Below the pieces are notes generated by a model. The model was not told the origin of the DNA and did no database searches. It saw only the letters and a program-made list of their open reading frames with translations. The translations under genes were made by a program, and so were the position numbers. A stretch of DNA of 38,678 bases from Bacteroidota bacterium (GTDB lineage Bacteria; Bacteroidota; JABWAT01). The stretch covers positions 67,337-106,014 of the forward strand of contig JABWAT010000009.1 in NCBI GenBank assembly GCA_013360915.1, in the 5' to 3' direction. This document shows, piece by piece, positions 17,348 to 38,678 of the stretch. Each line of letters begins with the position of its first letter. The first letter of the stretch is position 1.

Positions 17348-17357
17348 GGTGTGCCTC

Positions 17358-18503: not shown

Positions 18504-19459
18504 GCCGGTAACTCCTTCCTGCTCGATTCAATCAGGTGGATAAACACATCTTCCAGGCTGGGAACGATGACCTCGAGGGATTTAACCACGATTCCAGACC
18601 CGGTCAGGGTGGTGGTAATGTCACCTCTGATCCTGTCGGTGAACCGTTCACCCTCCTTGAGCATAATGTGGAGATGAAGCCCGAATACCGAGGTTTCACT
18701 GACGACTGGAAGCGAGTTAATCACAGTCATAGCCTCCAGTGGCTGATCGGTGAGCAGTTCGAGGGAAACGGATTTCATTTCACGGGTTTTCAGTTCCTGC
18801 GGAGAACCGAGTGCAATCAGCCGTGCATTGTAAATCAGACCAATCGTGTGGCAATATTCGGCTTCATCGAGAAAATGCGTGGTGACAAATACGGTGGTTC
18901 CTGCAGCAGACACCTGATCGATAATCGACCAGAAATTGCGGCGCGAAACCGGATCGACTCCACCGGTCGGTTCATCCAGAAAAATCACATCGGGTTCATG
19001 GACCATGGAGGCAGCCAGTGCGAGCCGCTGTCTGATTCCACCCGGCAACCCGGCCACCATGCGGTTTTCGTATCCGGTCAGTTGCACCAGATCGAGAAAG
19101 TGACGGATTCTGGTTTGCCGGACCTCGGACGGCACTTTGTATAACGTGGACCAGAATTCCATGTTTTGCTGAACGGTGAGGTCCTGATACAGACTGAACC
19201 GCTGGCTCATGTAACCGATCCGTGTTTTAATCCGCTCTGCTTGGTTCCGGATGTCCAGACCGGCCACAGTCCCATTTCCTCCGGACGGATTCAGCAAGCC
19301 ACACAACATCCGGATGGTGGTGGACTTTCCTGAACCATTCGGTCCGAGGAAGCCGAAAATTTCACCCTTTTTTACCGTGAAGCTGACATCATCCACAGCC
19401 TTGAAGGTGCCGAAATGCCGGCTGAGGTGGTCGACGGATATGGAAACCGGTGCATTCAT
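18500..19459 (-). CDS. ABC transporter ATPase subunit 2 (YbhF C-terminal-half-like)
   Basis: A 319-residue ATPase. A longer upstream reading frame exists, but the ATG at 19459, overlapping the tolC stop by one base, is the start that gives MNAPVSISVDHLSRHFG. Walker A GPNGSGKST (39-47), Walker B VIFLDE (158-163) and H-loop His195 in TTHFLDEAEYCH are intact, while the signature is LPGGIRQ (138-144) instead of LSGGQ. The C-terminal ~80 residues form the extra domain seen in drug-export ATPases. Together with the ATPase at 20952-21866 it corresponds to the two halves of E. coli YbhF, here encoded separately. Confidence 0.93.
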   Translation of the reverse strand: MNAPVSISVDHLSRHFGTFKAVDDVSFTVKKGEIFGFLGPNGSGKSTTIRMLCGLLNPSGGNGTVAGLDIRNQAERIKTRIGYMSQRFSLYQDLTVQQNMEFWSTLYKVPSEVRQTRIRHFLDLVQLTGYENRMVAGLPGGIRQRLALAASMVHEPDVIFLDEPTGGVDPVSRRNFWSIIDQVSAAGTTVFVTTHFLDEAEYCHTIGLIYNARLIALGSPQELKTREMKSVSLELLTDQPLEAMTVINSLPVVSETSVFGLHLHIMLKEGERFTDRIRGDITTTLTGSGIVVKSLEVIVPSLEDVFIHLIESSRKELPA

Positions 19460-20955
19460 CAGAGCAACCGTCCCCAGGCTTTTGCCTGAACCAACCGGTC
19501 GGTCATCCAGTTTATCCGGGCAGCCTCGGCCTGAAGTGCGGCTTGTGTGGCCTGTACATCGGCATCGAGCAGATCGGCAACCGGAATCAGTCCGGCGCGA
19601 AACTGATTGGCAACCTGTTCTGCACGTTTCCGGGTCTGTTCTGAGAGCAATTGCATCACAGCCACCAGTTTTTCCGAACGCGCCAGTGCTGCATCGGCTG
19701 CCTGTTGTTCCAGTGTGATGGACTTCCTCAGTAGTGATTCCTGGAGATCCATCTGATTTCTGGCCAGATCGGCCTGCTGAGTTTGCAGAAACCGGGTATT
19801 CCATGTCCAGATTTCATAGGAAAGGACCAGAGAGACATCCCAGGTGGATTTCCATGCCTGCTCAACCGGGAAATACCGCGGGTTCGGATTGGCCAGATCA
19901 TAGTTGGCCTGTAAAGCAATGGTGGGAAACCAATCGGACCGGGCCACTTTTATTTGCTCTGAAATGGCCGATTTCCGGAAGGTCAATCCAGAAAGTTCAG
20001 GTCTTTCGGAAGGCTGGGGTGAAAGGACCGGTATTTCCATGGGTGCCAGTGTTCCGGTGAAAGCTGTTGAACTTCCAAGCCATTGACCCAGACCAAGCCG
20101 GGCAACCTGTAACCGATCAGCCGCATAGATGGCCTCGGCTTCCGTTTCCGTTTTTTTAACGCGGATGGCGAGTACTTCGGTTTCGGTCAGGAGTCCCTGG
20201 GCGGCCATGGATTCTGCATCGGAGAGTCGTTTAGTCAATAAATTGACAAGTTGACTGGTCAATTCCACCTGTTTTTCTGCGAGGAGAACCTGTCCGTAGG
20301 CACGGGTAACCTGAAGGGACAGTTCCTGCTGACGGGTTTTAACGTCCATGCCGGCTGCTTTGGCCTGCCATTCAGCTGCCTGTTCGGCGGCGGTCAGTTT
20401 GAAGCCGGTGAAAAGGGGTTGGGTCAACGTTAAACGGAAAGCGGCTGCATCTTCAATGGATTCGGATACCACCCGGTTTATGGTTCCGACCGGCGGCGGA
20501 AGGGTGAGTGAAATCGCGAAAGGATCCACTTCGGACTGACGGGTGAACCGGCCGGATGCTTTCAGGGAAGGTAAGCGATTATTGAAGGCCTGATCAGACG
20601 TCAGGGCTGCCGATTCGGCTTTGAGTTGTTCTATGCGGATTTGCTCATGAGCGGCCCGTGCTTTTTCAATGGCTTCGGGCAGGGAAAGCGTGGATTGGGA
20701 GTGCCCGGGAATGGCTGAAAAGAGCAGAAGTGCTGCTAAAATTCCGGGGAAAGAGAATCCACGGGTCTGATGTATTTTCTGGTGGCTTCGACTCCGCTCA
20801 GCCACCGGGTTCCCGGTAGCTTCCCCGATTGTATCGGGGTAAACAACCACCTCAGCCACCGGGTTAAATAACTTCAGGGAATCCGACTTGGTAATTTTAT
20901 TCCGTACTATACCTTCTGACTTCTGAATTCTGAATTCTGAATTCTTCCTTTTCAT
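19459..20955 (-). CDS. TolC-family outer-membrane efflux protein with repeat-derived N-terminal extension
   Basis: Outer-membrane channel for the exporter. Two OEP repeats are visible: first from about residue 90 (LSLPEAIEKARAAHEQIRIEQLKAES, ALTSDQAFNNRLPSLKASGRF) and second around 300-480, with the helical segments RKSAISEQIKVARSDWFPTI. The start ATG 20955 overlaps the ATPase stop by 4 nt (ATGA), with GGAGAAGAAAGG before it. Oddly, the signal peptide (GFSFPGILAALLLFSAIPGHSQ) begins only near residue 66; residues 5-15 and 31-59 are read from dispersed repeats (20913-20947 and 20781-20865). No good alternative start lies between. Whether the long leader still allows export is uncertain. Confidence 0.88.
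   Translation of the reverse strand: MKRKNSEFRIQKSEGIVRNKITKSDSLKLFNPVAEVVVYPDTIGEATGNPVAERSRSHQKIHQTRGFSFPGILAALLLFSAIPGHSQSTLSLPEAIEKARAAHEQIRIEQLKAESAALTSDQAFNNRLPSLKASGRFTRQSEVDPFAISLTLPPPVGTINRVVSESIEDAAAFRLTLTQPLFTGFKLTAAEQAAEWQAKAAGMDVKTRQQELSLQVTRAYGQVLLAEKQVELTSQLVNLLTKRLSDAESMAAQGLLTETEVLAIRVKKTETEAEAIYAADRLQVARLGLGQWLGSSTAFTGTLAPMEIPVLSPQPSERPELSGLTFRKSAISEQIKVARSDWFPTIALQANYDLANPNPRYFPVEQAWKSTWDVSLVLSYEIWTWNTRFLQTQQADLARNQMDLQESLLRKSITLEQQAADAALARSEKLVAVMQLLSEQTRKRAEQVANQFRAGLIPVADLLDADVQATQAALQAEAARINWMTDRLVQAKAWGRLL
20781..20865 (-). repeat. Hairpin-rich dispersed repeat inside the tolC reading frame
   Basis: Contains the 13-nt direct repeat CAGCCACCGGGTT at 20799-20811 and 20853-20865, a perfect hairpin CCCCGAT-TGT-ATCGGGG (20823-20839), and an inverted repeat GGTGGCT/AGCCACC (20781-20787, 20800-20806). 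In frame it encodes NPVAEVVVYPDTIGEATG and NPVAERSRSH, which I recall from spurious proteins in other Bacteroidota, so it is most likely a dispersed element. Confidence 0.7.
20913..20947 (-). repeat. GAATTCAGAATTCAG-type short repeat inside the tolC reading frame
   Basis: On the plus strand TTCTGACTTCTGAATTCTGA continuing in the same 7-nt rhythm (CTGAATT repeated). In frame it gives NSEFRIQKSEG. The same words occur at 27681 on the opposite strand. Confidence 0.7.
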
Positions 20956-21866
20956 CCTTTCTTCTCCGCCAATTGATGAATAAAAATGGTTTCCATGGTT
21001 GGTTCGGTTTCTCGCCAGTGAGAAATGGTAATCTGGTGACTTTCAACACGGCTGATGAGGGGAAGGGGATCCTCATCCGTTGGGAGCAGCAACTGAACCC
21101 GTTCGCCCAGTAAATGGGATTCATACTCTGAAAAATAAGTCTGTAACACCGATTGCAGCCGGCGCGGATCGTTGGGGATCATTTCAAGCAGTTTCCGGTT
21201 CAGCTGACGACGCAGCATTTCGGGAGAGGCAACAGCAAGCAGTGAACCCTGATTCATGAGCGCGACCCGGTGACAACGTTCTGCTTCATCCATGTACGGG
21301 GTTGCGACCAGAATGGTCAGCCCCTGGCGGATCAGGTCGGAGAGAATTTTCCAGAAATCGCGCCGGGAAATGGGATCGACTCCAGTGGTCGGTTCATCGA
21401 GGATGATCAGGCTGGGGTGGTGAATCAATGTACAGGCAAGGGCCAGTTTCTGCTTCATTCCACCCGAGAGCTGACCGGCCAGCCGGTTACCAAATTCAGA
21501 CATCCGTGTGAATGCCAGTAATTCCCGTTTGCGTGATTCATGATCGGTTACACCGTGAATCGCAGCAAAAAAATCGATGTTTTCGTTCACCGTCATGTCT
21601 TCATACAAAGAAAACTGCTGGCTTAAATAACCCACCTGATCCTTGATCACCAGCGGATTTTTCACCCGGTCTTCTCCAAGCACCGTGAACGTTCCTTCAT
21701 CCGGATTCAAAAGACCCAGAATGCTGCGGATCAGAGTGGTTTTTCCGGCGCCATCGGGTCCGATCAGCCCAAAAAGTTCACCGGGTTTTACCGACAAAGC
21801 CACCCGGTCAAGGGCCTGGACTGCACCGAACCGATGTGAACAGGGTGTGATGGTTAAGGCCGACAC
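20952..21866 (-). CDS. ABC transporter ATPase subunit 1 (YbhF N-terminal-half-like), GTG start
   Basis: A 304-residue ATPase starting at GTG 21866, 2 nt after the hlyD stop. Walker A GPDGAGKTT (36-44), signature LSGGMKQ (133-139) and Walker B LIILDE (153-158) are intact, but the H-loop His is replaced by Pro190 in VATPYMDEAERCH. The companion ATPase has the opposite defects (altered signature, intact H-loop), which suggests a heterodimer with one degenerate and one consensus ATP site. Its stop overlaps the tolC start by 4 nt. It energises export of an unknown compound through the permeases at 16220-18503. Confidence 0.93.
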   Translation of the reverse strand: MSALTITPCSHRFGAVQALDRVALSVKPGELFGLIGPDGAGKTTLIRSILGLLNPDEGTFTVLGEDRVKNPLVIKDQVGYLSQQFSLYEDMTVNENIDFFAAIHGVTDHESRKRELLAFTRMSEFGNRLAGQLSGGMKQKLALACTLIHHPSLIILDEPTTGVDPISRRDFWKILSDLIRQGLTILVATPYMDEAERCHRVALMNQGSLLAVASPEMLRRQLNRKLLEMIPNDPRRLQSVLQTYFSEYESHLLGERVQLLLPTDEDPLPLISRVESHQITISHWRETEPTMETIFIHQLAEKKG

Positions 21867-21868
21867 GG

Positions 21869-22828
21869 TTATTCCGATTTGCGGTTGATAAAGGCGTCGC
21901 CAGGCATGCCTGCTTTTAGAGCACCATTGTAATTCGGAACATCGAGGCGTGCTTCGAACACCAGCTTCACGCGGTCATCGCGCGATTGAATATTTTTCGG
22001 TGTGAATTCGGCCGTTGGGGACAGGTAGCGGATAATGCCGGTAAAAGCCCGGTCCTCAAAGGAATCCACTCTGATGGTCACTGAATCACCCAGCTGAACG
22101 AGTCCCAGATCGGGTTCTCTCAGATAGACGCTCATGGTCAGAATCTGGTTGCTGGTGACCAGGGCCACCTGAGATCCTGGTTGAACCAGTTCGCCGGGAT
22201 CGACAGACACCGTGCTGACGAGGCCGGATTGCATGGCTCTGATTCTGCAATCAGACAGTTTTTTCCGGGCAAGCATCCATTGGGCTTCAGCCTGATCGGC
22301 CCTGGCCTGGGCCATGTCGATGTCCTCACGGCGGGCGCCCCGAACCAGTTTATTCCAGCTTTCTTCGGCCTGCTGAAAGGTTGCTTTGGCCACCTCGAGC
22401 CGGGTCGACGCGTCATCGGCTTGTTTCTGTGAGGCGGATTGGGTTTTCAGAAGTCCGGCAAGGCGGTCATGGTCGCGTTGTGCGGCGGTCAGGTTAGCAC
22501 GGGCCGCTTCCTTTGCTTCTGCAGCCACCCGGATGTCTTCGCGACGGGCTCCATTCTGAATCAGGTCGAGTGCGGCCCTTGCCTGTCGGTAAACTGCATG
22601 AGCCTGAAGGACATTCAGGTAGTAGTCTGTGGTATCGATCTGAAGAATCACCTCACCAGCCCGGATTGAATCACCTTCGGATTTCAGAACAGATTTGACC
22701 AGGCCGGCCACTTGTGAACTGACGATCTGATCGTTTCCTTCCAGCGTACCGGTCACTTCAATGGTGTCGCCATTGTCACAGGCGATGGCGAGAGGAAACA
22801 GGGCAGCGAGTAAGCAGAATCGTTTCAT
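21869..22828 (-). CDS. HlyD/YbhG-type periplasmic adaptor lipoprotein
   Basis: A 319-residue membrane-fusion protein. The N-terminus MKRFCLLAALFPLAIAC has lipobox AIAC, and Asp follows the Cys (C-D), a pattern that in E. coli retains lipoproteins in the inner membrane; whether the rule applies here is unknown. Next come the lipoyl half (GLVKSVLKSEGDSIRAGEVIL), a long helical hairpin with an internal repeat (NGARREDIRVAAEAKEAA / RGARREDIDMAQARADQAE), the second lipoyl half (SGLVSTVSVDPGELVQPGS) and a beta-barrel. GGAG lies eight bases before the ATG. It overlaps tetR by 4 nt. It should bridge the permeases and the TolC channel. Confidence 0.93.
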   Translation of the reverse strand: MKRFCLLAALFPLAIACDNGDTIEVTGTLEGNDQIVSSQVAGLVKSVLKSEGDSIRAGEVILQIDTTDYYLNVLQAHAVYRQARAALDLIQNGARREDIRVAAEAKEAARANLTAAQRDHDRLAGLLKTQSASQKQADDASTRLEVAKATFQQAEESWNKLVRGARREDIDMAQARADQAEAQWMLARKKLSDCRIRAMQSGLVSTVSVDPGELVQPGSQVALVTSNQILTMSVYLREPDLGLVQLGDSVTIRVDSFEDRAFTGIIRYLSPTAEFTPKNIQSRDDRVKLVFEARLDVPNYNGALKAGMPGDAFINRKSE

Positions 22829-23400
22829 GGATGAGTCTCCGTTTTCCTTAAAATTCCAAATAGAAATAGATCATGAAGCTGGGTGAAGGCCGTTTTGGGT
22901 GAATGGGGGGAGTTGATCAGATAAGCCGGTACCATGATGGTATTAACCACAGCCAGAAACGCATCGATGGCCAGGGTGGCGTCAATTTCCTGACGGATCA
23001 GACCTTGTGCCTGACCCTCCTTCAGCAAAGTGGTGAGCCGGCTGCGGATGTTATGCTCCCGGAAAGCCAGGATCCGTTGAAACAGATCGGGGCGATTCCG
23101 CTGAAGATCCTGCATCATGGCTGGCGATACCCGCCAGACATAGGTTGAAATGATTTCGAAGAAAGCTTCCATTTTCTCGACGGGATTCAGGTCGGGACGT
23201 GCCATGACTGCGTCGAATATGGAGGCCAGATTCGACATGACGTAGTCAAGAACGGCATCGACCAGTTTGTCCTTGGTTTCGTAATACTTGTAAAGGGTTT
23301 TCTTACTGATGCCCAGTTCCTGGCTGATTTCATCGGTGGTCACCCGACTGAAACCATGCGCCATGAACTTTTCCATGGCTTTTTCGACAATTGTAATCAT
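22825..23400 (-). CDS. TetR-family repressor of the efflux operon (CecR-like position)
   Basis: A 191-residue regulator. The N-terminal HTH is compact: ITIVEKAMEKFMAHGFSRVTTDEISQELGISKKTLYKYYETKDKLV, the TetR signature with recognition helix SKKTLYKYY. The start at 23400 leaves almost no residues before helix 1. The rest is the helical ligand and dimer domain. It is the first gene of the operon and overlaps hlyD by 4 nt, the same order as E. coli cecR-ybhGFSR, where the regulator controls the pump. An 8-bp inverted repeat over its promoter (23443-23472) is a likely site for self-control. Inducer unknown. Confidence 0.92.
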   Translation of the reverse strand: MITIVEKAMEKFMAHGFSRVTTDEISQELGISKKTLYKYYETKDKLVDAVLDYVMSNLASIFDAVMARPDLNPVEKMEAFFEIISTYVWRVSPAMMQDLQRNRPDLFQRILAFREHNIRSRLTTLLKEGQAQGLIRQEIDATLAIDAFLAVVNTIMVPAYLINSPHSPKTAFTQLHDLFLFGILRKTETHP

Positions 23401-23432
23401 GGAAACGATTCCGGTGTTATTAGTTTCTTTGA

Positions 23433-23472
23433 CAAAGGTAGCAGGAAACTATTTCAGTGTCAAGAGTTTCCT
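23433..23472 (-). promoter_or_regulatory. Promoter and TetR operator candidate of the efflux operon
   Basis: Minus strand: TTGACA (TTG at 23463-23461), a 20-nt spacer, TACCTTTG (23440-23433), an exact TAnnTTTG. A perfect inverted repeat AGGAAACT / AGTTTCCT (23443-23450 and 23465-23472, 14-nt spacer) surrounds the TTGACA; a further partial half-site TAGTTTC is at 23421-23427. Binding there would block the polymerase. Confidence 0.65.
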
Positions 23473-23482
23473 TTGCAATACT

Positions 23483-23700
23483 TTTAACGCGAAGGGCGCA
23501 AAGTGAAATACAAGGAGAGCGCAGAGGTTTTTTGGTTTTCAATACAAAAATCTCTGAGGACTCTGCTTTTCTCTGCTCCCTCTGCGGTAAAATTCCTTCA
23601 CCGCAGAGAGCGCAAAGGGTAAATACAGAAGAACGCAAAGGTTTTCTTGTTTTAAAATCAATAAACTTAGCGCCTTGGCGTCTTCGCGTACATATTTTGC
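23483..23700 (+). repeat. Dispersed intergenic repeat, CGCAAAG family (copy 6)
   Basis: The 358-bp divergent gap between tetR and the DsbA-like gene holds the promoter (23433-23472) and then this repeat: TTTTAACGCGAAGGGCGCAA, GGTTTTCAATACAAAAATCT, CTCTGCTCCCTCTGCGGTAA, CTTCACCGCAGAGAGCGCAA, GGCGTCTTCGCG. About 58 bp after it is the DsbA-like start; no gene seen. Confidence 0.8.
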
Positions 23701-23758
23701 ACCCTCCCTTAAAGCCCCTGATCCAAACTTTTCCAGCCAGATCATTGTTTAGTGACTC

Positions 23759-24400
23759 ATGCACACACTCTACTACTTCATGGATCCGCACTGCGGATGG
23801 TGTTATGGCTTCAAGCCGGTGATGAACCAGATCCGCAGGGACTTTCAGGATCGGCTCGAATTTAAACTAATTCTGGGCGGAATGATCACGGGTGATCGCG
23901 TCGGTCCGGTGGGGCGGATGTCGGATTATCTGAGGACGGCCATTCCGCGTCTGGAGGAAATGACAGGCGTGACCATGGGCGAGTCGTACAAGCACCAGGT
24001 GATTGAAATCGGGACCCTGATTACTGATTCGACCCCACCGAGTCTGGCCGTGCTTGCCATGGCCAGTCAGAAACCCGGTCAGGAATTCACGTTCATGGAA
24101 ACGGTTCAGGATCGGTTGTTCCAGGACGGTGCCGATCTGAATGTGGCTGAATCTTACCAACCAGTGGTTCTTGCCAATGGTCTCGATTGGGATCAATGGC
24201 TGGCCGACTGGAAGTCCGATCCGGTCCGGTTTGCGTTCAGTCAGGATGTGCAGTTTACCCAACAGATCGGTGTCAGCGGATTCCCCACGGTGGTTTTGGT
24301 CAACGGGAATACAGGACATCTGGCGGCGAGGGGTTACGTTCCCTACGCAGAACTGAAGGAGCGGGTGGAAACCTGGCTGCAGAATCAGAACCGGAGCTGA
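23759..24400 (+). CDS. DsbA-family thioredoxin-fold oxidoreductase (cytoplasmic, COG3531-like)
   Basis: A 213-residue thioredoxin-fold protein with active site C12-G-W-C15 in YYFMDPHCGWCYGF, the inserted helical domain of DsbA proteins (about residues 60-150), and the cis-Pro loop GVSGFPTVVLVNG. It has no signal peptide, so it probably works in the cytoplasm, like FrnE-type or COG3531 proteins, possibly as thiol-disulfide isomerase; the physiological substrate is unknown. No strong binding site is visible upstream. It is convergent with the aldo/keto reductase gene, 25 bp apart. Confidence 0.88.
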   Translation: MHTLYYFMDPHCGWCYGFKPVMNQIRRDFQDRLEFKLILGGMITGDRVGPVGRMSDYLRTAIPRLEEMTGVTMGESYKHQVIEIGTLITDSTPPSLAVLAMASQKPGQEFTFMETVQDRLFQDGADLNVAESYQPVVLANGLDWDQWLADWKSDPVRFAFSQDVQFTQQIGVSGFPTVVLVNGNTGHLAARGYVPYAELKERVETWLQNQNRS

Positions 24401-28121: not shown

Positions 28122-31100
28122 TCACCCGCCAGTCACCTGCTTCGCTTCGGGTTGTTCCAGAGGCAGCAGAATCCGGAAGGTGGTACCTTTGCCTTCCTCA
28201 CTGGTAACGGTAATGGTACCGTGGTGGGCCTGAATGATTCCGTAACTGATGGCAAGGCCGAGTCCTGTTCCTTTTCCCACCGGTTTTGTTGTAAAAAACG
28301 GGTCGAAAATGTGTTTCATCACCGGTTCAGGAATGCCGGTACCGGTATCAGTGAAGTCTATAAAAACCTGATCGCCATCGAGTCCGGTGGTAATGGTAAG
28401 GGTTCCTCCCGCCGGTAACATGGCATCCATGGCATTCACCACAATGTTCATGAAGACCTGATTGATTTGACCAGCATGACAAGGTACCTCGGGCAGCGGA
28501 CTGTATCGGCGTTCCATGACGATTTTGTCACGGGCTTCTGACCGGCACAGCATCAGGGTGGCTTCCAATCCTTCATGAATATCAGCCGGTTTAAATCCGC
28601 CGGAGTCACGCCGCGAAAAACTCCGCAGGCTGCGCACAATGTCGGCTGTGCGTTTCGAGCCGGTTTCAACGCCTCGGAGAAGGGTATCAATCTCGTCGCA
28701 GATATCCTGCAGGTCGGCTTGCCCGGCCACGGTTTTCAGCCGTTCCAGCAGATCGGATTCACCGTTGCCACCCGAAGCAGCCAGCAGTTCCCTGATCTGC
28801 CTGATAACCGACTTCAGTTCTGAAATGTCATCTTTCAGCGGATGGATGCTGGCATTGATGTAATTGACCGGGTTATTAATTTCATGTGCGATTCCAGCCA
28901 CCAATGTTCCCAGTGAAGCCATCTTTTCCGATTGGATCAGTTGCATCTGCATGGCCGACATTTCGGAAAGGGTCTGGTTCAATTGTTGATTGACTTCTTC
29001 CAGATGGTCCTTTTGTTTTCTGATTTCGCGGCTCTGCTCGAGGATCTGATTGTTTTTCCGTTGTGATTCTGAGAGCAGGAGGGATTTTTCCTCGAGCATG
29101 CTGGCTTTTGCAAAAGCATACTGAATATTCGATTTCAGATTGCGGAGCATGGAAAGATCCCGTTCGAGGAACGCTTCCGCCTGGCTCATGTTATCGAGAA
29201 TGATATAAGCGGCCGTGTACTGAGAGGCGGGAATACGCAGAACCACCAGCGATTTTGGTAATTCCAGTCCCCTGAATTTTTCATTGACTGGTAATTCGGT
29301 CACCGAGGTGAAACTGAAAATATCCTGAAACACTTCGGTTCCTGTGGAAACATAACGAGACCAGGCTTCGCTTTCGGTAAGCGTCACAGTCCGCAGATCC
29401 TCCAGATCCCATCCGTGGGCTGCTCTGAATTCGAACAGATTGGTATGTGGATTAAAGACCAGAACTGAAGATTTTTCCACACCGGGAATGGCAGATAAGT
29501 GGTCGAGAATGGTCTGGATCAGATCATCGAACCGCCATTCCGAATTAATGGCGCGGATGATGCCGTTCAGCCGCTCGAGTTCCTCATTTCTCTCCTTCAG
29601 TTCGGTGGTTCTGATCGCCACCATGGCTTCAAGCTGACGGTTTCTTGCTTTGAAGGACCGGAGGATCATCATGAGCAGACCATAGACGAGGGACGAGGCC
29701 AGCAGGAAGATCAGCGCAAGGGCCCACCACGTCAGATACCATGGGGTGGCCACCCGGAATGAAAATGAAACGGTATCAGACACAAGCCCTGCACCATTCC
29801 TGGCCACCAGACTGAAAGTATATCGGCCCGGCGAAAGGTTGGTGAATTCTTTCCGGTTTTCCGAGGTCCATGCAGACCAGTTTTCATCAAATCCACTCAG
29901 CCGGGTGCGGTAAACGGAGGGCTGGTCACTGATTTGTGAGGTTCCTGAAAAGGAGAACCGGATTCCCAGCAGACGGTCGGGAATGACCGGTTCGGTTTGG
30001 TCGGGGAGAGTGTACCAGGCGGGTCCGCTGAAAAAGACCGAGTCCTGACCGAATTCAATCCGGCTGATGACAGCACGGTTTAACAGTGGTCGTCCTGCAT
30101 CAGGAATGCGTTTAATGCTGAACAAGCCGGCTGTTCCTCCCACATAGAGGTGGTCTTTGTCTGCATCGAGCCAATACACCTGAAATTGGGGAATGCCGCC
30201 GGCTGCATCCTGTTTCCAGGTTTTGTCGGCAAGCCGGTACCGGTACAATTTACTTCCTGACCGGGCATAATAGACCGAGTCTCCCAGTGAAACCAGACGA
30301 AAGACATCAGAGGCCGTTCGCTTGAACCCCGTTTCGAGAACAGGGTCGGTAATCAGGCGAAGATGATCAGGTCCGGGTGAGAGCAATCCCTGCCGGGTTC
30401 CGAAGACAATGCGGCCGCCGGCAGAGAAGGGGGTGGACCATCCGGTGGGGTGACCGGCTGAGGTATCGATGACCGAAAAGGACCACAGGCCGGTTCCCGT
30501 TTTATTGAACCGCAAAGCCATGGAATTGTTGGTTCCAGCCCAGAGGTCACCTTTCCGGTCCTGATCGAGCTGCAAAATTTCACCAGGTGTTTTGAGGGTT
30601 TGAATGACCGGATATCCGGGAACATCTCTTAAAAACACCACCTGATCTTCCTGCCCGGCCACAAGAATCTGACGGTCGGTTTTTAGCCGGAACAAGGTGT
30701 AGGTGGTTCCCTTCAGAATCCTTTCAGGAGTTTGGCCCGAAACCAGCCAGACACCAGTGTAATTTCCTGCCAGAATCCCTGCATGACTTTCGATGACGGA
30801 CCAGGCCTGAACATCGAGACCGGGAACCAGTTTCGCTTTCGGTTCTCCCCGGGACAACCGAGGTTTTATGTCGATGCGATACACACCCTGACTGGTGGCG
30901 GCCCACCAATCGGTTTTTCCTCTGACCACATCGTTGACCGTTCCGTTCAATCCGTCTTTTCCGCTCAGACTGATGACCCCGTTTCCGAGATCGATGGCCG
31001 CCAGACCATTGTTCGTGGCCACCCACAATCTGCCATCCGGTGACCAGGTCACTGCCCGCACGGCCGGGTCGGGTAATCCGTTAGACTGATCAAAGTGGTG

Positions 31101-31952
31101 AAGGAGGGTCCCATCCGACCCGGTGATGACCAACCCGGATTTGGATGAACCAAAAACAAACCGTCCGTCGGGCAGTTGGATACCACAATACAGATTTCCG
31201 GTCAGGCTCCAGGTCCGGACCGGTTCGGGAAAGGGAATGACTCCGGAGCCATTTCTGAAAACCAGTCCGGTCTGCCGGTCGCCGGTGACCCACGATCCGT
31301 CCCCGCGCCGTAAAAGAACAAACTGAAGTTCGCCTGGTAAGGAGGGAAGATCACTTCCCGATTGCAAACGGCCGTTTTGGTAACGAAACAAGCCGCTGTC
31401 CTTAACCTGAATGTAAAAGTCCTTTCCGATCGCCCGGCTGGTCAGAAAACCCCGATCCGATTTAATGACGGTCAATGCGGAATCGGACCAGCGGAACAAA
31501 TGATGATCGGCCAGAAAAAAAACGCCCTCGCCGGTCACCCAGGTTTCCCAGATATTTGAGAAGGCTGGAAAACCAGCAGGAAGATGGCTGGTGAGACTTG
31601 AAAAAGAGGGTGCCTGGCTGTTTCGAAGGTCTACAATTCCAAAATCACCCTTCAGACCGGCAAAGAAAATACCATCCTGCAAAACCGCCACCGACCGCAC
31701 CACCTTCTGGGACGGCATGGGGATAAGAGACCAGGAGTTTCCGTTGAAAATCAACAAGCCGGAATTGTTTCCGGCAGCCACCAATCCATCCGGACTGGCC
31801 GAAATGGACCAATTCTGATTGTGAGCCTGGTACTCTGATGGAGGGACGACCCTGATGGCCGGAGATCCGGGAGGATCGGGTTCATGGGCATAAAGCAACT
31901 GACTGATCAGAAGTGCCGCGAGGACACCGGGTAAAAGATGCAGAAAACTCAT
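28122..31952 (-). CDS. Large periplasmic-propeller sensor histidine kinase with GAF domain (second kinase)
   Basis: A 1276-residue membrane sensor kinase. Parts: signal peptide (MSFLHLLPGVLAALLISQLLYA), periplasmic beta-propeller (about 30-650; blades such as SPDGRLWVATNNGLAAID), Y_Y_Y domain (about 655-730), TM helix at about 736-762 (WYLTWWALALIFLLASSLVY), coiled coil, GAF domain (about 800-945), second coiled coil, HisKA with phospho-acceptor His1023 (GIAHEINNPVNY), HATPase_c with N-box NQVFMNIVVNAMDAM, G1 DTGTGIPEP and GTGLGLAISYG. It has no receiver or AraC domain, unlike classic hybrid systems, and no response regulator is near. Its start overlaps the previous kinase stop by 4 nt. Confidence 0.92.
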   Translation of the reverse strand: MSFLHLLPGVLAALLISQLLYAHEPDPPGSPAIRVVPPSEYQAHNQNWSISASPDGLVAAGNNSGLLIFNGNSWSLIPMPSQKVVRSVAVLQDGIFFAGLKGDFGIVDLRNSQAPSFSSLTSHLPAGFPAFSNIWETWVTGEGVFFLADHHLFRWSDSALTVIKSDRGFLTSRAIGKDFYIQVKDSGLFRYQNGRLQSGSDLPSLPGELQFVLLRRGDGSWVTGDRQTGLVFRNGSGVIPFPEPVRTWSLTGNLYCGIQLPDGRFVFGSSKSGLVITGSDGTLLHHFDQSNGLPDPAVRAVTWSPDGRLWVATNNGLAAIDLGNGVISLSGKDGLNGTVNDVVRGKTDWWAATSQGVYRIDIKPRLSRGEPKAKLVPGLDVQAWSVIESHAGILAGNYTGVWLVSGQTPERILKGTTYTLFRLKTDRQILVAGQEDQVVFLRDVPGYPVIQTLKTPGEILQLDQDRKGDLWAGTNNSMALRFNKTGTGLWSFSVIDTSAGHPTGWSTPFSAGGRIVFGTRQGLLSPGPDHLRLITDPVLETGFKRTASDVFRLVSLGDSVYYARSGSKLYRYRLADKTWKQDAAGGIPQFQVYWLDADKDHLYVGGTAGLFSIKRIPDAGRPLLNRAVISRIEFGQDSVFFSGPAWYTLPDQTEPVIPDRLLGIRFSFSGTSQISDQPSVYRTRLSGFDENWSAWTSENRKEFTNLSPGRYTFSLVARNGAGLVSDTVSFSFRVATPWYLTWWALALIFLLASSLVYGLLMMILRSFKARNRQLEAMVAIRTTELKERNEELERLNGIIRAINSEWRFDDLIQTILDHLSAIPGVEKSSVLVFNPHTNLFEFRAAHGWDLEDLRTVTLTESEAWSRYVSTGTEVFQDIFSFTSVTELPVNEKFRGLELPKSLVVLRIPASQYTAAYIILDNMSQAEAFLERDLSMLRNLKSNIQYAFAKASMLEEKSLLLSESQRKNNQILEQSREIRKQKDHLEEVNQQLNQTLSEMSAMQMQLIQSEKMASLGTLVAGIAHEINNPVNYINASIHPLKDDISELKSVIRQIRELLAASGGNGESDLLERLKTVAGQADLQDICDEIDTLLRGVETGSKRTADIVRSLRSFSRRDSGGFKPADIHEGLEATLMLCRSEARDKIVMERRYSPLPEVPCHAGQINQVFMNIVVNAMDAMLPAGGTLTITTGLDGDQVFIDFTDTGTGIPEPVMKHIFDPFFTTKPVGKGTGLGLAISYGIIQAHHGTITVTSEEGKGTTFRILLPLEQPEAKQVTGG

Positions 31953-34900
31953 TGGGGAGATCCGTGCAGAGGAATGGTGATATCGGCCTGAATTCCGACA
32001 TCAGGATGATTCCGGAGAGTGAGTGACCCCTGATGGCGTTTCACCATGGCCAAAGCAAGAGTCAGTCCCATGCCCTGGTGCCTTCCCACCGGTTTGGTCG
32101 TGAAAAACGGATCAAAAACCCGTGGCAGAACAGGTTCCGGAATGCCGGGACCGGTATCGGAGATACTGATGACAATCCGGTTCTGATCGAGTCGGGTCGA
32201 AATGGTAATGGATCCGCCGGTGGGTTCAACTGCTTCGATGGCATTGATCAGAACGGCGAGAAACACCTGATTCATTTCCTGATGGTTCAGTTCAACGGCC
32301 GGCAGGGTTTTGTCAAAATGGGTGTCGATCCGGATGTCGGGTGTTAAACGGTGCTGAAGCAACGAAATGGCCATACTCAATCCCGAATGAACGTAATCGG
32401 TTTTCAGGACCGATTCATCCAACCGGGTGAATTTACGCAGGTCAGCAACAATGGCCGCCGTTCGTTTCGCCCCGCTTTCAATTCCATCGAGCACCTGTCG
32501 CGATTCGGTAAAAACATCGTGAACGTCCTCGGGTAATTTCTCCGGGACCCTGGCAGTCAGCATCGACTCGATTTCCTCCAGATTCCGACGGATGATCACA
32601 GCGCCTGACGTGATAAAATTGATGGGGTTGTTCATCTCATGAGCCAGCCCGGCCGTCAGTTGACCCACCGAGGCCAGTTTTTCCGATTCAACCAACCGGA
32701 CCTGAGCCTCCTTCAGATCGGAAAGCGTTGATTCCAACTCACGGGTTCTGACTCTGACCTGGTCTTCGAGCATGATTTTCTGAAGACTGATTCGGCGAAA
32801 CCGGATCCACACAATCAACCCTGCCAGTCCTCCGATCACGGCAATCAGCAGAAGACGGAACCAAAGGGTCATCCAGAAAGGCGGATGAACCACGATGGAC
32901 AGTTCCTTTTCGAACCGGCTGATTTTTCCGTCATGATTGGTCCCCCGAATCCTGAGAGTGAAAGTTCCCGGGTCCAGATTGGTGAAGGTGATCACTCCGC
33001 CGGCGCCCGCCTGCATCCATTCACGGGAAAACCCTTCCAGGAAAAAGTAAATCCGGTTAGAGGCCGGCCGGGTGAAATCCAAAGCAGATGCCCTAACCGT
33101 GATCACGTTTTCATCGTAGTTCACCTCGAAACCTGGAAGGAAAGAAGCTTCGCCCGAGGCAGGAACCACCCGGTCGAGAACATGAATGCGGCTGATGACC
33201 ACTGGTGCGTCATAGGTGAAGTCGGTGACCGAATCGGGATAGAATCGGTTGAATCCGTTAATTCCGCCGAAGAACAACTCGCCATCCGGTGATTCAAACA
33301 CCGAATTTGTATTAAACTCCATGGCCTGAAGTCCGTGCTGAGTGGAAAAGTGGCGGATGGAGCCCGAAACCGGATCCAGCCGGATCAGACCCAGATTGGT
33401 ACTCATCCAAATCCGGTTTTTTGCATCGCCTGCCACGGCGTAAATGTAAGTATTTATCAATCCTTCACGGGTGGTATAGCGGGTGAAGGTGCTGCTGTCC
33501 GGATTCATCCGGTTCAGTCCGTTGTTAGAGCCGGCCCATAAAACGCCCTGTCTGTCCACATAGACCGACCGGATGGTTGAATTGGAAAGGGAAAGTGTGT
33601 CGCCGGGATTATGAACCCATGATCTGAACCGTCCGGCTGCATCGGAATATCGGTGCAGTCCGGCAGGTGTGGCCACCCAGATGCTGCCATCCGGTCCTTC
33701 TGCAAGAGAGAAAACAGTACCATCCAGCAATCCGGAATCGTCGTCTGGTTCGAAATGTCTGATCAGCCGGCGATTCTGGTCGAGCAGTGTGACCCCGTGA
33801 TCGGTTCCAATCCATAATCTGTTCTGACGGTCTTCCAGAATAGCCCTGACAATCGGATCAACCAGAATCTGCTGATTTTTTTTATCGTCGAGCCAGAAGC
33901 CGGCTGGTTTTCCATCGGGACTCAGGCGGTTGGCACCCCGGCTGGTTCCCACCCAGATATACCCCTGACGATCCTCGGTCAGTGCCCAGATGTTGTGATG
34001 TCCGATGGAGGCGGGACCAACCGGGTAAGTGCGGAACCGGTCAGATTCCGGTTCCAGCAAATTCAGTCCGCCCCCCAGGGTGCCAACCCAAAGCCGGTTC
34101 TTCGAATCACGAAGCATACTGCGGATGTTGTTGTCAGAAAGTCCGGAACCGCCTGCCGATTTTCCCTGAACAAGGTTAAAAGGTTTTTTCTTCAGATCGG
34201 TACGACTCAAACCGCCCGCCGCCGTTCCCACCCACAGATTACCGGAACGATCGGCAAGCAAGGACCGGACCAGATCATTTGAAAGAGATTGATCCGATCC
34301 CGGATCATGCCGGATTTCCCGGATCCGTCCGGTTTGAGGATGAAGCAATTTCAATCCGTTGTCGGTACCCAGCCACAACCAGCCTTCCGGGTCTTTCAGA
34401 ATGCTGCGGATGGTGCCATCTCCAAACCGGTTAAGTGAGGAATATCGCGATGGAGATGAAACCGATTCCTTGAAAACCAGCCAGGTCCGGATGGAGGCCT
34501 CTTTCCACCGGTAGGCATTTAACCCGTTGGTGGTACCAATCCACAGAGTTTCCGCGTCATGGTCGTCATACAGCGAAAGAATCAGGGAATTCGACAGGCC
34601 GCCGGGTCCGGTTCCGATCACGGAAAAAGTACCATCGGACGGGCGGTACAGACTAAGGCCACTGGCTGTTCCAATGACCAGTTGACGGGTTTTTTCATGC
34701 CAGAGAAGTGCGAGTACCGAATTGGCAGGCAGAAAGGGATGGGTTTCGGAGGTGAACAGCCGGATGGTGCCGCTGTCAGTATCGATACGGTAGAGTCCCG
34801 ACTCGGTTCCCGCCCATAACACGCCATCGCCTCCGGTAGCCAGTGTCCAGATTCTGATATCCGGCAGCACAGTATGAAAGGTTCCGGTTGCATGGTGGTA

Positions 34901-35209
34901 CCGTTGCAATCCGCGCTGATGGGTACCAACCCAGAGCCGGTCCTTCCGGTCGGTCAGCAAGCTGGTTACCCATTCATCCGCCAGAGAGAGTGAGTCTCCG
35001 TTCACCGGCCGGAAAACCGTAAACTCATGCCCGTCATACCGGTTCAGGCCATCCTGTGTACCGATCCAGAGAAAACCGGTCGAATCCTGAACCATTGAAA
35101 AAACCGAACTCTGAGAAAGTCCTTCCTCCATGGAAATCCGGTTGAACACCGGGGTCTGAGACCAGACCTCTGATAGTGCAAACAGAGGAAGAAGGACGAT
35201 CAGCCGCAT
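31949..35209 (-). CDS. Large periplasmic-propeller sensor histidine kinase (first kinase)
   Basis: A 1086-residue sensor kinase. I use ATG 35209, which overlaps the UbiA stop by one base and gives signal peptide MRLIVLLPLFALSEVWSQ. The propeller has about 13 Reg_prop blades of the type GFLWIGTQDGLNRY, RLWVGTLGGGLNLL, ELFFGGINGFNRFYPD (about residues 25-695). Y_Y_Y about 705-770, TM at about 782-802, short coiled coil, HisKA His857 (GLAHEMNNPINF), HATPase_c with NQVFLAVLINAIEAV, DTGPGIPEP and HQGMGLTLALAMV. No GAF, receiver or DNA-binding domain. It senses something in the periplasm; the partner regulator is not in this window. Confidence 0.92.
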   Translation of the reverse strand: MRLIVLLPLFALSEVWSQTPVFNRISMEEGLSQSSVFSMVQDSTGFLWIGTQDGLNRYDGHEFTVFRPVNGDSLSLADEWVTSLLTDRKDRLWVGTHQRGLQRYHHATGTFHTVLPDIRIWTLATGGDGVLWAGTESGLYRIDTDSGTIRLFTSETHPFLPANSVLALLWHEKTRQLVIGTASGLSLYRPSDGTFSVIGTGPGGLSNSLILSLYDDHDAETLWIGTTNGLNAYRWKEASIRTWLVFKESVSSPSRYSSLNRFGDGTIRSILKDPEGWLWLGTDNGLKLLHPQTGRIREIRHDPGSDQSLSNDLVRSLLADRSGNLWVGTAAGGLSRTDLKKKPFNLVQGKSAGGSGLSDNNIRSMLRDSKNRLWVGTLGGGLNLLEPESDRFRTYPVGPASIGHHNIWALTEDRQGYIWVGTSRGANRLSPDGKPAGFWLDDKKNQQILVDPIVRAILEDRQNRLWIGTDHGVTLLDQNRRLIRHFEPDDDSGLLDGTVFSLAEGPDGSIWVATPAGLHRYSDAAGRFRSWVHNPGDTLSLSNSTIRSVYVDRQGVLWAGSNNGLNRMNPDSSTFTRYTTREGLINTYIYAVAGDAKNRIWMSTNLGLIRLDPVSGSIRHFSTQHGLQAMEFNTNSVFESPDGELFFGGINGFNRFYPDSVTDFTYDAPVVISRIHVLDRVVPASGEASFLPGFEVNYDENVITVRASALDFTRPASNRIYFFLEGFSREWMQAGAGGVITFTNLDPGTFTLRIRGTNHDGKISRFEKELSIVVHPPFWMTLWFRLLLIAVIGGLAGLIVWIRFRRISLQKIMLEDQVRVRTRELESTLSDLKEAQVRLVESEKLASVGQLTAGLAHEMNNPINFITSGAVIIRRNLEEIESMLTARVPEKLPEDVHDVFTESRQVLDGIESGAKRTAAIVADLRKFTRLDESVLKTDYVHSGLSMAISLLQHRLTPDIRIDTHFDKTLPAVELNHQEMNQVFLAVLINAIEAVEPTGGSITISTRLDQNRIVISISDTGPGIPEPVLPRVFDPFFTTKPVGRHQGMGLTLALAMVKRHQGSLTLRNHPDVGIQADITIPLHGSPQ

Positions 35210-36111
35210 CAGAACAACCAACCGGACCGGATGATCAGGTGAATTATAAAGACGAGGGACAAACTGACCGATGACCAGCGGTTCATCCACATGGTGTTTT
35301 CAAAATCAGCTTCTGCCGGATCTTTCCTGACGCGGTAAAACCACAATTCGAAGTATGCAAGAACCGGAATCATTCCAATGATAAATACCATGGCATTCCA
35401 CGGACCGGTGAACAGGATCAGCATGACAGTCAGGGCCAATCCTGCCAACCCCAGCACCAGTCTGGCGAAGAAAAAGGTGCCGTTGATTCCGAGAAGAAGG
35501 CTGAGCGTCTTGTCACCCCGCCTGGAATCTTCGGCATGCTGATACACCTGGGTGAGCGGGTAAGAACCCAGTAAAAACAGGGTGGAAATGAGTGCAAATC
35601 CCACATTTACAGGAGCGGATAACTGATCGGTGGAATACCCCAATCCGACCTGAATGGTCAGAAACATCCAGAAACCCTGAAAAACCGAAACCACACCGGC
35701 TGAGAGGATGGGGTACTTTTTCAGACGGATGGTGGGTTGGGAGTAGGCTTTGGATACAAGTGTGTAAACCAGAATTCCGGCAAAGAACAAGGGCGATATC
35801 AGCCAGGAAAGAATCAAACCCAGTCCATCGAACAGAAGCACCAGCCAGAACAGTTCTTTGGTGACCCGGGGTGGGGTTTTCAGGCCGCCAATGCTGCCTT
35901 CATCACGGTCATGCCAGGAATTATATCCGTTGCTGGCCGGGTAAACCAGTAAATGAATGATGGCAAAAACCACTACGGCATGAAGGGGGACCGCACCATC
36001 GGTCAGGCTGAGGGCCATCCAGAAGACGGGCATGAGATAAACCGAGAAGGGAATCCGCATCAGCCTGAAGGCAGATATCCATCTGGAAAGGGAATTGGGG
36101 TGGACCGTCAT
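35209..36111 (-). CDS. UbiA-family prenyltransferase
   Basis: A 300-residue polytopic prenyltransferase with eight or nine TM helices. The first Asp-rich motif is N61-GYNSWH-D68-R-D70, the second HAED195SRRGD200KTLSLLLG; between them is KAYSQPTIRLKKYP, the YS.PP.RLK loop of the superfamily. It would transfer a prenyl chain from a diphosphate to an aromatic or other acceptor in the membrane. I use ATG 36111; a longer frame to 36216 has no TM and no binding site. It is divergent from the type III polyketide synthase (152-bp gap) and its stop overlaps the first kinase, so it leads a three-gene operon. The product of the PKS is a plausible acceptor (inference). Confidence 0.88.
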   Translation of the reverse strand: MTVHPNSLSRWISAFRLMRIPFSVYLMPVFWMALSLTDGAVPLHAVVVFAIIHLLVYPASNGYNSWHDRDEGSIGGLKTPPRVTKELFWLVLLFDGLGLILSWLISPLFFAGILVYTLVSKAYSQPTIRLKKYPILSAGVVSVFQGFWMFLTIQVGLGYSTDQLSAPVNVGFALISTLFLLGSYPLTQVYQHAEDSRRGDKTLSLLLGINGTFFFARLVLGLAGLALTVMLILFTGPWNAMVFIIGMIPVLAYFELWFYRVRKDPAEADFENTMWMNRWSSVSLSLVFIIHLIIRSGWLF

Positions 36112-36263
36112 GATTTCTTTTTCGGATAAATATGAGGAATCCCAGAAGTAAATGGCAAAAACGCGAAGGGTGCCGGGGGGTTCTCTGGTAAAAATGTGGG
36201 GTTTGCCACATATCATTCCGGCTGGATTGAACCAAAGTCGGGTGACTCAATGTTTAGTACCTC
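36112..36263 (+). promoter_or_regulatory. Divergent control region between UbiA and type III PKS genes
   Basis: 152 bp serve both transcription units. An inverted repeat ATGTGG / CCACAT (36194-36199, 36206-36211) with a 6-nt spacer lies near the middle and may be a regulator site. I see no good TAnnTTTG box in either direction. Confidence 0.45.
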
Positions 36264-37373
36264 ATGAGTCAGATCGTTTCTATTGGCACGGCCGTGCCTG
36301 ATTATCAGCTTAAACAATCCCAGGTTGCAGACTGGATGGTCTCGCAATTACACCTGATGGGAAGAGATGCCGACCGGCTGCGGATTCTGTATGAACGGAG
36401 TGCCATCGATACCCGGTATTCGGCCATTCCCGATTATGGCTGCGAACCCGGCGATCGGGTCCTGTTTCCCGAAACGGCTGATCTGGAGCCATTCCCCGGG
36501 GTTTCAGCCCGAATGGCGCTTTTTCATCCACCGGCCAGAGAACTGGCCCTGGCTTCAGCCCGGCAGGCTCTTGAAAGAGTCCGGGTATCGCTGCAACCGA
36601 CTCATGTGATTTCGGTGACCTGTACCGGCCTGGCTGCTCCCGGACTCGATATCGATCTGGTTACCGGACTCGATCTGCCCGGGTCAACGATTCGCACATC
36701 GGTTAACTTCATGGGATGTTATGCCGCCTTTCACGCTCTGAAACTGGCCGATGCTTTTTGCAGGGCCGATCAGGAAGCCGTGGTGCTGGTTGATGCCGTC
36801 GAATTGTGCACCCTCCATTTTCAGAAACTGAACGAACCCGATCATCTGCTTGCCAATTCGCTGTTTGCCGACGGATCGGCTTCTGCCCTGATCATGAGCG
36901 ATCAAAAGGCACGTCGGCTGGGACTCCCCGGTCTTACCATTGCCGGCTTCTGGTCCGAACTGGCGCTTCACGGCCGGTCCGACATGGCCTGGGCCATCGG
37001 CGATACGGGATTTCTCATGACCCTCAGCTCGTACATTCCCGATCTGGTCAAACATGGAATCGGACCGCTGACCGACCGGGTGTTTCAGGCGGCCGGACTG
37101 ACGACCAGCGAGATTCACCATTGGGCCATTCACCCCGGTGGCCGCAAAATTCTGGAATCCACCGCATCTGCCCTCGGGTTAAATCCGGAAAAGCTCGCCT
37201 CCTCTTTCCGGGTTTTGCGCCAGTTTGGAAACATGAGTTCTCCGACAGTTCTGTTTGTTCTGAAAGACCTGTGGGATTCCACGCTGAATTTTGACCGGCA
37301 GGAAACGGTCTTTTCGGCCGGATTCGGTCCCGGTCTGACGCTTGAATCGGCCGTTTTTAAAACCATTTCATGA
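36264..37373 (+). CDS. Type III polyketide synthase (chalcone/stilbene synthase-like)
   Basis: A 369-residue homodimeric ketosynthase. Triad residues: Cys152 in NFMGCYAAFHAL, His290 in HWAIHPGGRKIL, Asn323 in FGNMSSPT. The N-terminal thiolase-like domain covers about 1-225 (THVISVTCTGLAAPGLDIDL), the C-terminal one 226-369, ending FSAGFGPGLTLESAVF with the GFGPG loop. It would extend an acyl-CoA starter with malonyl-CoA and cyclise the chain to a resorcinol, pyrone or phloroglucinol; the starter cannot be predicted. The gene overlaps the methyltransferase start by 4 nt (ATGA). The UbiA gene is divergent. No strong binding site precedes the ATG. Confidence 0.94.
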   Translation: MSQIVSIGTAVPDYQLKQSQVADWMVSQLHLMGRDADRLRILYERSAIDTRYSAIPDYGCEPGDRVLFPETADLEPFPGVSARMALFHPPARELALASARQALERVRVSLQPTHVISVTCTGLAAPGLDIDLVTGLDLPGSTIRTSVNFMGCYAAFHALKLADAFCRADQEAVVLVDAVELCTLHFQKLNEPDHLLANSLFADGSASALIMSDQKARRLGLPGLTIAGFWSELALHGRSDMAWAIGDTGFLMTLSSYIPDLVKHGIGPLTDRVFQAAGLTTSEIHHWAIHPGGRKILESTASALGLNPEKLASSFRVLRQFGNMSSPTVLFVLKDLWDSTLNFDRQETVFSAGFGPGLTLESAVFKTIS

Positions 37374-38068
37374 TACGAAGTCTGAAACAGCGGGTGGATG
37401 AACCCGAATTACTGGATGATCCCGGAATTCCGGAAGGGGAACTGATTGATAATCTGAAGGAACTGGAGTGGATCAACCGGTTGCTGGGCGGTCATGCCAT
37501 TACCATTTCCGGATTGAAAGGGCTGATTGGCGGCGACCGTTCCCGGACCTGGACCATCACCGATCTGGGATGCGGGGGAGGAGACACGCTGCGGGCCATC
37601 AGTCACTGGGCAGGGAAGCATCAGATTCCGGTCAGACTGGTTGGAATCGATCTGAATCCAGCCTGTATCCGGTATGCGCAACGGGCGTCTCAATCATATA
37701 ATATTGAATGGATCTGTGCCGATTTCCGGGAAGCAATTCCGGCTGATACCGACATTCTTATCAATTCGCTGTTTTGCCATCATCTGGATGATTCCAGTCT
37801 GAAAGAGTTGTTGCTGCTGATGAAAAACAAGGCCCGGCGTGGATTTGTTATCAACGATCTGCAACGGCATCAGGTCGCATTCGCGTCCATCTGGATATTA
37901 ACCCGGCTGCTGAACGGTTCACGACTGGTTCGTCATGATGCCCCTCTGTCGGTGGCTCGGAGTTTTCATCGCCATGAATGGCTGACCCGGTTGTCAGAGG
38001 CCGGTCTGGCTTCGTCCCGCCTGTCCTGGAGATGGGCATTCCGCTGGCAGGTGGTTTATGAAAAATAG
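37370..38068 (+). CDS. SAM-dependent methyltransferase coupled to the type III PKS
   Basis: A 232-residue class I methyltransferase. Motif I is DLGCGGG (65-71) and the acidic residue binding the SAM ribose is Asp94 in GIDLNPACI; CHHLDD (136-141) is the region after strand 4, and FVINDLQRH is strand 5. The N-terminal ELLDDPGIPEGELIDNLKEL and the C-terminal HDAPLSVARSFHRHEW are marks I recall from methyltransferases that accompany type III polyketide synthases in Bacteroidota. It would methylate the PKS product, on O or C, not determined. It overlaps the PKS stop by 4 nt. After it comes a repeat block rather than the oxidoreductase often found in such clusters. Confidence 0.88.
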   Translation: MIRSLKQRVDEPELLDDPGIPEGELIDNLKELEWINRLLGGHAITISGLKGLIGGDRSRTWTITDLGCGGGDTLRAISHWAGKHQIPVRLVGIDLNPACIRYAQRASQSYNIEWICADFREAIPADTDILINSLFCHHLDDSSLKELLLLMKNKARRGFVINDLQRHQVAFASIWILTRLLNGSRLVRHDAPLSVARSFHRHEWLTRLSEAGLASSRLSWRWAFRWQVVYEK

Positions 38069-38348: not shown

Positions 38349-38678
38349 CTACAATCCCATCAGTTGCTTCACATATTTCGGCGCAGGAGATCCGAACGAA
38401 AGAATCTTGTCGTGAAAGGTTTTCAGTGAAGTCTGGGTACCATATGTGGTCTCATACCGGCGGCGGATATCGTTGATTTCCAGATTCCCGACATAATAAG
38501 TCGAAAGCTGCGACGACGACAGGCAGGCCCGGATCCACTTGCCGGCCGCTTCGCCTTCTTCCTGAAAGCCTTCATTCATCATCAGGGCCATGGCTTCTGC
38601 CTCGGTCATGTTTCCGGCATGAATACTCTGGTCCAGAATGGCATTGATAATCAGCCGTAAACGCATTTTTAATTGCTG
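38349..38678 (-). CDS. C-terminus of a DUF885 protein (5' truncated by window)
   Basis: The frame runs off the right edge without a stop (QQLK before MRLRL), so this is the last about 110 residues of a longer protein. The segment ILDQSIHAGNMTEAEAMALMMNEGFQEE, a helical repeat, then QLSTYYVGNLEINDIRRRYE and SLKTFHDKILSFGSPAPKYV match the C-terminal end of DUF885, proteins of about 550-600 residues with an HExxH-like metalloprotease-type core upstream (family memory). The active site is outside the window. It ends TAG at 38349, just beyond repeat block B. Confidence 0.8.
   Translation of the reverse strand, partial: QQLKMRLRLIINAILDQSIHAGNMTEAEAMALMMNEGFQEEGEAAGKWIRACLSSSQLSTYYVGNLEINDIRRRYETTYGTQTSLKTFHDKILSFGSPAPKYVKQLMGL

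Follow-up and report, generated by a model that had tools for sequence, protein, structure and literature searches.

The stretch of Bacteroidota DNA analyzed here, 38,678 nucleotides long and referred to as the window, contains genes for a type III polyketide synthase (PKS) and a methyltransferase (MT) facing a gene for a UbiA prenyltransferase, which is followed by genes for two sensor kinases, K1 and K2 (Table 1). This arrangement raises the question of what the enzymes make and whether the kinases belong with them. Read directly from the sequence, the PKS/MT and K1/K2 junctions are both ATGA, a 4-nt overlap, and the UbiA/K1 junction is TGATG, a 1-nt overlap; on re-reading, these overlaps and the gap between the two units are as a first-pass annotation had described them. 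The layout is not a product of chance, because the order DUF885, MT, PKS, UbiA, K1 and the overlaps recur in a second genus, where identity is 43-72%. The window ends with its contig (C9 of the source genome, 106,014 bases), where the DUF885 gene is cut; contig C28 begins with most of the remainder of this gene.

Table 1. Features of the locus, in window coordinates
Feature	Position	Strand	Description
PKS	36264-37373	+	type III polyketide synthase, 369 aa; Pfam Chal_sti_synt_N and _C
Methyltransferase (MT)	37370-38068	+	SAM-dependent, 232 aa, PRK06202-like; Pfam Methyltransf_25
UbiA	35209-36111	-	membrane prenyltransferase, 300 aa, ATG 36111; Pfam UbiA
K1	31949-35209	-	sensor kinase, 1086 aa, ATG 35209; Reg_prop + Y_Y_Y + HisKA + HATPase_c
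K2	28122-31952	-	sensor kinase, 1276 aa; weak propeller + Y_Y_Y + GAF-like stretch + kinase core
Divergent intergenic region	36112-36263	.	152 bp, between the UbiA and PKS units
DUF885 gene, C-terminal end	38349-38678	-	Pfam; cut by contig end

The PKS is a type III enzyme: its N- and C-terminal Pfam domains both score above cut-off, and the Cys-His-Asn triad within the thiolase fold, already recognized in the first-pass annotation, is present as C152, H290 and N323 and invariant in an alignment with nine homologues. The closest solved structure is PKS18 of M. tuberculosis (PDB 1ted, E 1.5e-45), a long-chain pyrone synthase. For the MT, the best NCBIfam model is NF004851 (PRK06202), matched at 149 bits, below its cut-off of 243.

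Membership of the UbiA superfamily is well supported by Pfam (PF01040, 72 bits against a cut-off of 34.2) and by structure. An AlphaFold model with a pLDDT of 95 finds its best Foldseek match in A. fulgidus UbiA (4tq3, a structure with GPP and Mg; E 1.4e-5, TM approximately 0.7); a five-sequence profile search against PDB chains gave no sequence match. Both Asp-rich motifs had been credited to this protein. Two motifs can indeed be located, but each departs from the canonical form by one Asp. The first, NSWHDRDEG (N64SWHD68RD70E), has the last Asp of NxxxDxxxD replaced, and the second, QHAEDSRRG (Q191HAED195SRRGD), has Gln in place of the first Asp of DxxxDxxxG. Residues N64, D68, D70, Q191 and D195 are invariant in 32 members of the UbiA clade. 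Thus, the assignment to the UbiA fold stands and the claim of canonical motifs falls, since each motif lacks one Asp and the clade members share the variant.

The fold and the Pfam family would also suit a housekeeping quinone or heme enzyme that merely adjoins the PKS gene, an identity that the first-pass annotation had itself named as a phylogenetic argument against its reading. We regard this as highly improbable. The source genome encodes four further UbiA proteins, and in the tree the window UbiA groups with none of them, falling instead in a separate clade (support 0.98) that co-occurs with type III PKS across the phylum. One of the paralogues passes the cut-off of TIGR01475 as an MqnP-type enzyme, and another is a heme O synthase-like protein encoded amid cytochrome oxidase genes; the window UbiA matches no curated NCBIfam model for menaquinone biosynthesis (MqnP) or heme O synthase. 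It is also missing from G001, a genome of the same family that is 97% complete. The separate clade and the dedicated paralogues led us to reject the housekeeping assignment. The window UbiA belongs to a distinct Bacteroidota clade, associated with type III PKS and carrying variant Asp-rich motifs. No member was found on plasmids.

Relatives of this UbiA are present in 46 of 296 phylum genomes, and also in many named Bacteroidota (Pontibacter, Hymenobacter, Rufibacter, Adhaeribacter and Flavobacteriales MAGs). Outside the source family, we surveyed the surroundings of 91 UbiA loci. Genes were taken from open reading frames, which leaves room for small errors, and a PKS counted if it lay within 5 kb. 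A PKS was found at 19 of these loci, accompanied by an MT in every case and by an FAD oxidoreductase in 18. PKS, MT and UbiA are therefore part of a four-gene module that recurs across Bacteroidota, with the FAD oxidoreductase as its fourth gene, and the comparison of gene order proposed in the first-pass annotation bears out its enzyme part. Examples such as L040, L263 and L272 contain the same four protein families as the source genome, and UbiA is often divergent from the PKS across a short gap, as in the window. They differ from it in two respects: the FAD gene is linked, and there is no Reg_prop kinase beside UbiA. Among 15 genomes whose UbiA has no adjacent PKS, 14 encode a type III PKS elsewhere, including nine of the nine high-quality genomes. 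The prenylated, methylated aromatic polyketide suggested earlier is the best reading of the enzyme set, as UbiA and type III PKS co-occur even when they are not adjacent.

In the source genome the FAD oxidoreductase is encoded apart from the window (G000:C7:21066-22181), and orthologues of 42-43% identity occupy separate loci in G000 (the source genome), G002 and G003; the gene is absent from G001. Neither this fourth gene nor the wide spread of a kinase-free module akin to described clusters had figured in the first-pass annotation. The nearest NCBIfam model of the FAD enzyme, the geranylgeranyl reductase superfamily, is matched at 97 bits, below the cut-off of 158.8, so that both ring hydroxylase and prenyl reductase are possible roles.

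Two other arrangements were seen in the survey. In six genomes (L042-L047, families f16 and f14), type III PKS and MT are closely preceded, in the same orientation, by genes for a MATE transporter and a large sensor kinase (about 1280 aa) that is unrelated to K1. At L130:9165-9959, and at equivalent places in L055, L077, L265 and L266, UbiA comes after a further conserved gene whose product, judged by eye, resembles a class I SAM methyltransferase; in the Hymenobacter and Pontibacter loci with this putative methyltransferase, the type III PKS is elsewhere in the genome.

The enzyme set is of a known kind, as described clusters combine the same families. The actinobacterial agq genes reportedly encode a type III PKS, a methyltransferase, a flavin enzyme and a UbiA-type prenyltransferase that together yield a prenylated methoxyhydroquinone lipid. 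To our knowledge, agq includes no sensor kinase. Its likeness to the window is one of enzyme families, by description and not by sequence, and it differs in its actinobacterial origin and in that the FAD gene of our organism is unlinked. The agq cluster of Actinoplanes missouriensis and its alkyl-O-dihydrogeranyl-methoxyhydroquinones (Awakawa et al., 2011) are cited in passages of PMC7587189, PMC4044012 and PMC10896814. Passages of PMC8086630 and PMC10896814 describe hidABC, for hierridin in cyanobacteria, and a planctomycete MT-FAD-PKS operon, each with a type III PKS, a methyltransferase and an oxidoreductase; the alkylresorcinol core of these clusters was demonstrated by heterologous expression, and, as stated in PMC10896814, planctomycete PKS genes from PKS-MT-FAD operons make alkylresorcinols. 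According to the same passages, a hierridin-like cluster of Raphidiopsis also has a prenyltransferase. UbiA is not standard in these clusters, and the passages mention no kinase; this comparison, too, is by description and not by alignment. All families of the type III PKS-MT-FAD(-prenyltransferase) set are encoded in the source genome, but in G000, G002 and G003 they are not gathered in a single cluster as in agq or hid, the FAD gene being unlinked. No description of a Bacteroidota-wide type III PKS-UbiA pathway was found in the literature searched.

In contrast to the enzymes, the kinases are not known to have a counterpart in these pathways. In K1, which has an ATPase domain, H857 is the phosphoacceptor histidine, and K2 has H1023; Pfam finds no receiver and no DNA-binding domain in either. 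In the hybrid two-component systems (HTCS) of Bacteroides, a single protein unites a Reg_prop sensor with a kinase, a receiver and HTH_AraC. K1 and K2 share with them the periplasmic Reg_prop propeller, Y_Y_Y and kinase core, but are not HTCS themselves, having no Response_reg or HTH domain, and they lie beside lipid genes, whereas HTCS are found at polysaccharide loci. A literature search by one phrase returned no paper on Reg_prop sensor kinases in Bacteroidetes, which does not prove that none exists. The earlier description of two giant Reg_prop kinases needs revision. Pfam recognizes Reg_prop in K1; in K2 the summed score is above cut-off with no single repeat passing, and the GAF-like stretch was read by eye and not found by Pfam. 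Their size is ordinary, as the genomes of the source family encode 19-24 Y_Y_Y proteins each, most of them about 900-1500 aa.

Four genomes of the source family were sampled, three of which carry the module; these represent two genera, two genomes being congeneric, so that very few events underlie the co-occurrence of K1 with the pathway. In each of the three, the K1 gene overlaps that of UbiA. The locus in G003 (L037, JAIUNL010000015.1, a Bacteroidetes MAG) keeps DUF885, MT-PKS and UbiA-K1, with a K1 orthologue of 43-44% identity in the same position. In G002 a short contig (L038) keeps MT-PKS and UbiA-K1 and ends before DUF885, and K1 is in fragments, split over two contigs. The UbiA/K1 junction in both genomes is ATGA, a 4-nt overlap, compared with TGATG in the source genome. 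The K1 orthologues form one clade (support 1.0), and no match in a search of 247 phylum genomes came near that of G003. G001 is without UbiA, FAD and K1 (best K1 match 31%), and its PKS is only a distant superfamily hit (2.4e-5). Between G003 and G002, dN/dS is 0.08 for MT, 0.04 for PKS, 0.06 for UbiA and 0.10 for the K1 N-terminus; such low values indicate that all four are under selection, without telling their function.

Outside the source family, no kinase lies directly downstream of UbiA at any of the 91 loci. Two of the outside modules have co-oriented kinases of other types, a hybrid kinase upstream of PKS (L106) and a PhoR-like kinase after FAD (L275). The kinase link is local to one small family and not part of the phylum-wide module. 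This restriction is consistent with K1 having been inserted behind UbiA in the family ancestor and having kept a function of its own, the overlap reflecting no more than compact gene order. Y_Y_Y genes are abundant in these genomes and often in tandem, and none of the 63 response-regulator domains in the source genome adjoins K1. Against this, the overlap is kept in two genera although the junction sequence differs and K1 has diverged, purifying selection acts on the K1 N-terminus, and K1 is missing together with the pathway in G001. K1 could be a passenger that was lost with the whole segment in that genome. On balance, we consider an independent K1 a serious possibility, somewhat short of an even chance.

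The position of K2 is different. No K2 orthologue is found beside UbiA-K1 in G003, and there is no clear orthologue in the source family. The first-pass annotation had taken the presence of kinases beside UbiA in one genome only as a sign against a link; K1 adjoins UbiA in two genera, but K2 does so in the source genome only. By tree and comparison, the two kinases have sensors of different classes, which rules out a tandem duplication. Different sensors could respond to different things, and together with the co-orientation and the 4-nt K1/K2 overlap this would suit a single UbiA-K1-K2 signaling device in which both kinases jointly sense the lipid or the envelope state. We find this, the strong form of the first-pass reading, very unlikely, given the absence of K2 from the equivalent place in G003. 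Moreover, G001, a genome without the module, has at the equivalent position in L257, between DUF885/DsbA and a TetR operon, a kinase with the same class of sensor as K2 and about 26% identity to it over the sensor part; K2 or a forerunner may therefore predate the link to UbiA. Membership of K2 in the UbiA-K1 system is doubtful, and it is probably a neighbor and not a dedicated part. K2 itself looks chimeric: the class with which its sensor part groups (about 26% identity) is not the one nearest to its kinase core (about 50%).

The convergently oriented DUF885 gene, also found in G003, G002 and G001, is conserved at the flank of the module and serves as a synteny anchor outside the pathway. 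L257 keeps the flanks, namely DUF885, the DsbA-like gene and the TetR operon. The operon (TetR-HlyD-ABC-TolC-ABC-permease-permease, window 16220-24400) and the DsbA-like gene are conserved with L257:8527-19634, most at 54-77% identity, and flank the site where G001 is without the module. In the divergent gap there is a 6-bp inverted repeat, ATGTGG-N6-CCACAT (36194-36211), possibly a candidate operator. No Bacteroidota-type promoter matched in the gap, which gave no useful alignment with G003, and the repeat was not seen there. On these grounds, the idea of a conserved operator or promoter between the two units was set aside.

Based on these observations, we suggest a known kind of prenylated phenolic-lipid pathway joined in one clade by a sensor kinase that is probably translationally coupled, a reading to which we give about an even chance. 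The type III PKS would extend a long acyl starter to an alkyl or alkenyl phenolic (resorcinol-type) or pyrone lipid, the MT would methylate this polyketide lipid, the FAD enzyme would hydroxylate the ring or reduce the prenyl chain, and the membrane-embedded UbiA would add a prenyl group to give a quinone-like membrane meroterpenoid. K1, a histidine kinase with a periplasmic propeller, would signal an envelope or extracellular condition to a response regulator whose gene lies elsewhere. Because the genes overlap, UbiA and K1 would be made together, and the acquisition of an overlapping sensor-kinase gene in one family suggests that lipid production may be linked to an external signal. In favor of this pathway with a coupled kinase we count the 19 outside module loci, the co-occurrence in 14 of 15 genomes, the shared absence in G001, the K1 clade and the likeness to PKS18; against it, the few genomes, the split K1 of G002, the lack of an adjacent response regulator and the non-canonical UbiA motifs. 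The narrower proposal that K1 is translationally coupled and dedicated to sensing the pathway's membrane lipid, or a stress answered by that lipid, is tentative and, in our judgment, rather unlikely.

What is new at this locus is the conserved overlap of UbiA with a gene for a Reg_prop kinase, the meaning of which rests on few genomes. If K1 does sense the lipid, a Reg_prop kinase would serve the control of a lipid or quinone and not the use of polysaccharides. The enzyme genes point to a Bacteroidota-wide type III PKS-UbiA pathway with a distinct UbiA clade, and one family offers a testable link from an uncharacterized lipid to sensor kinases of a large class, few of whose signals are known.
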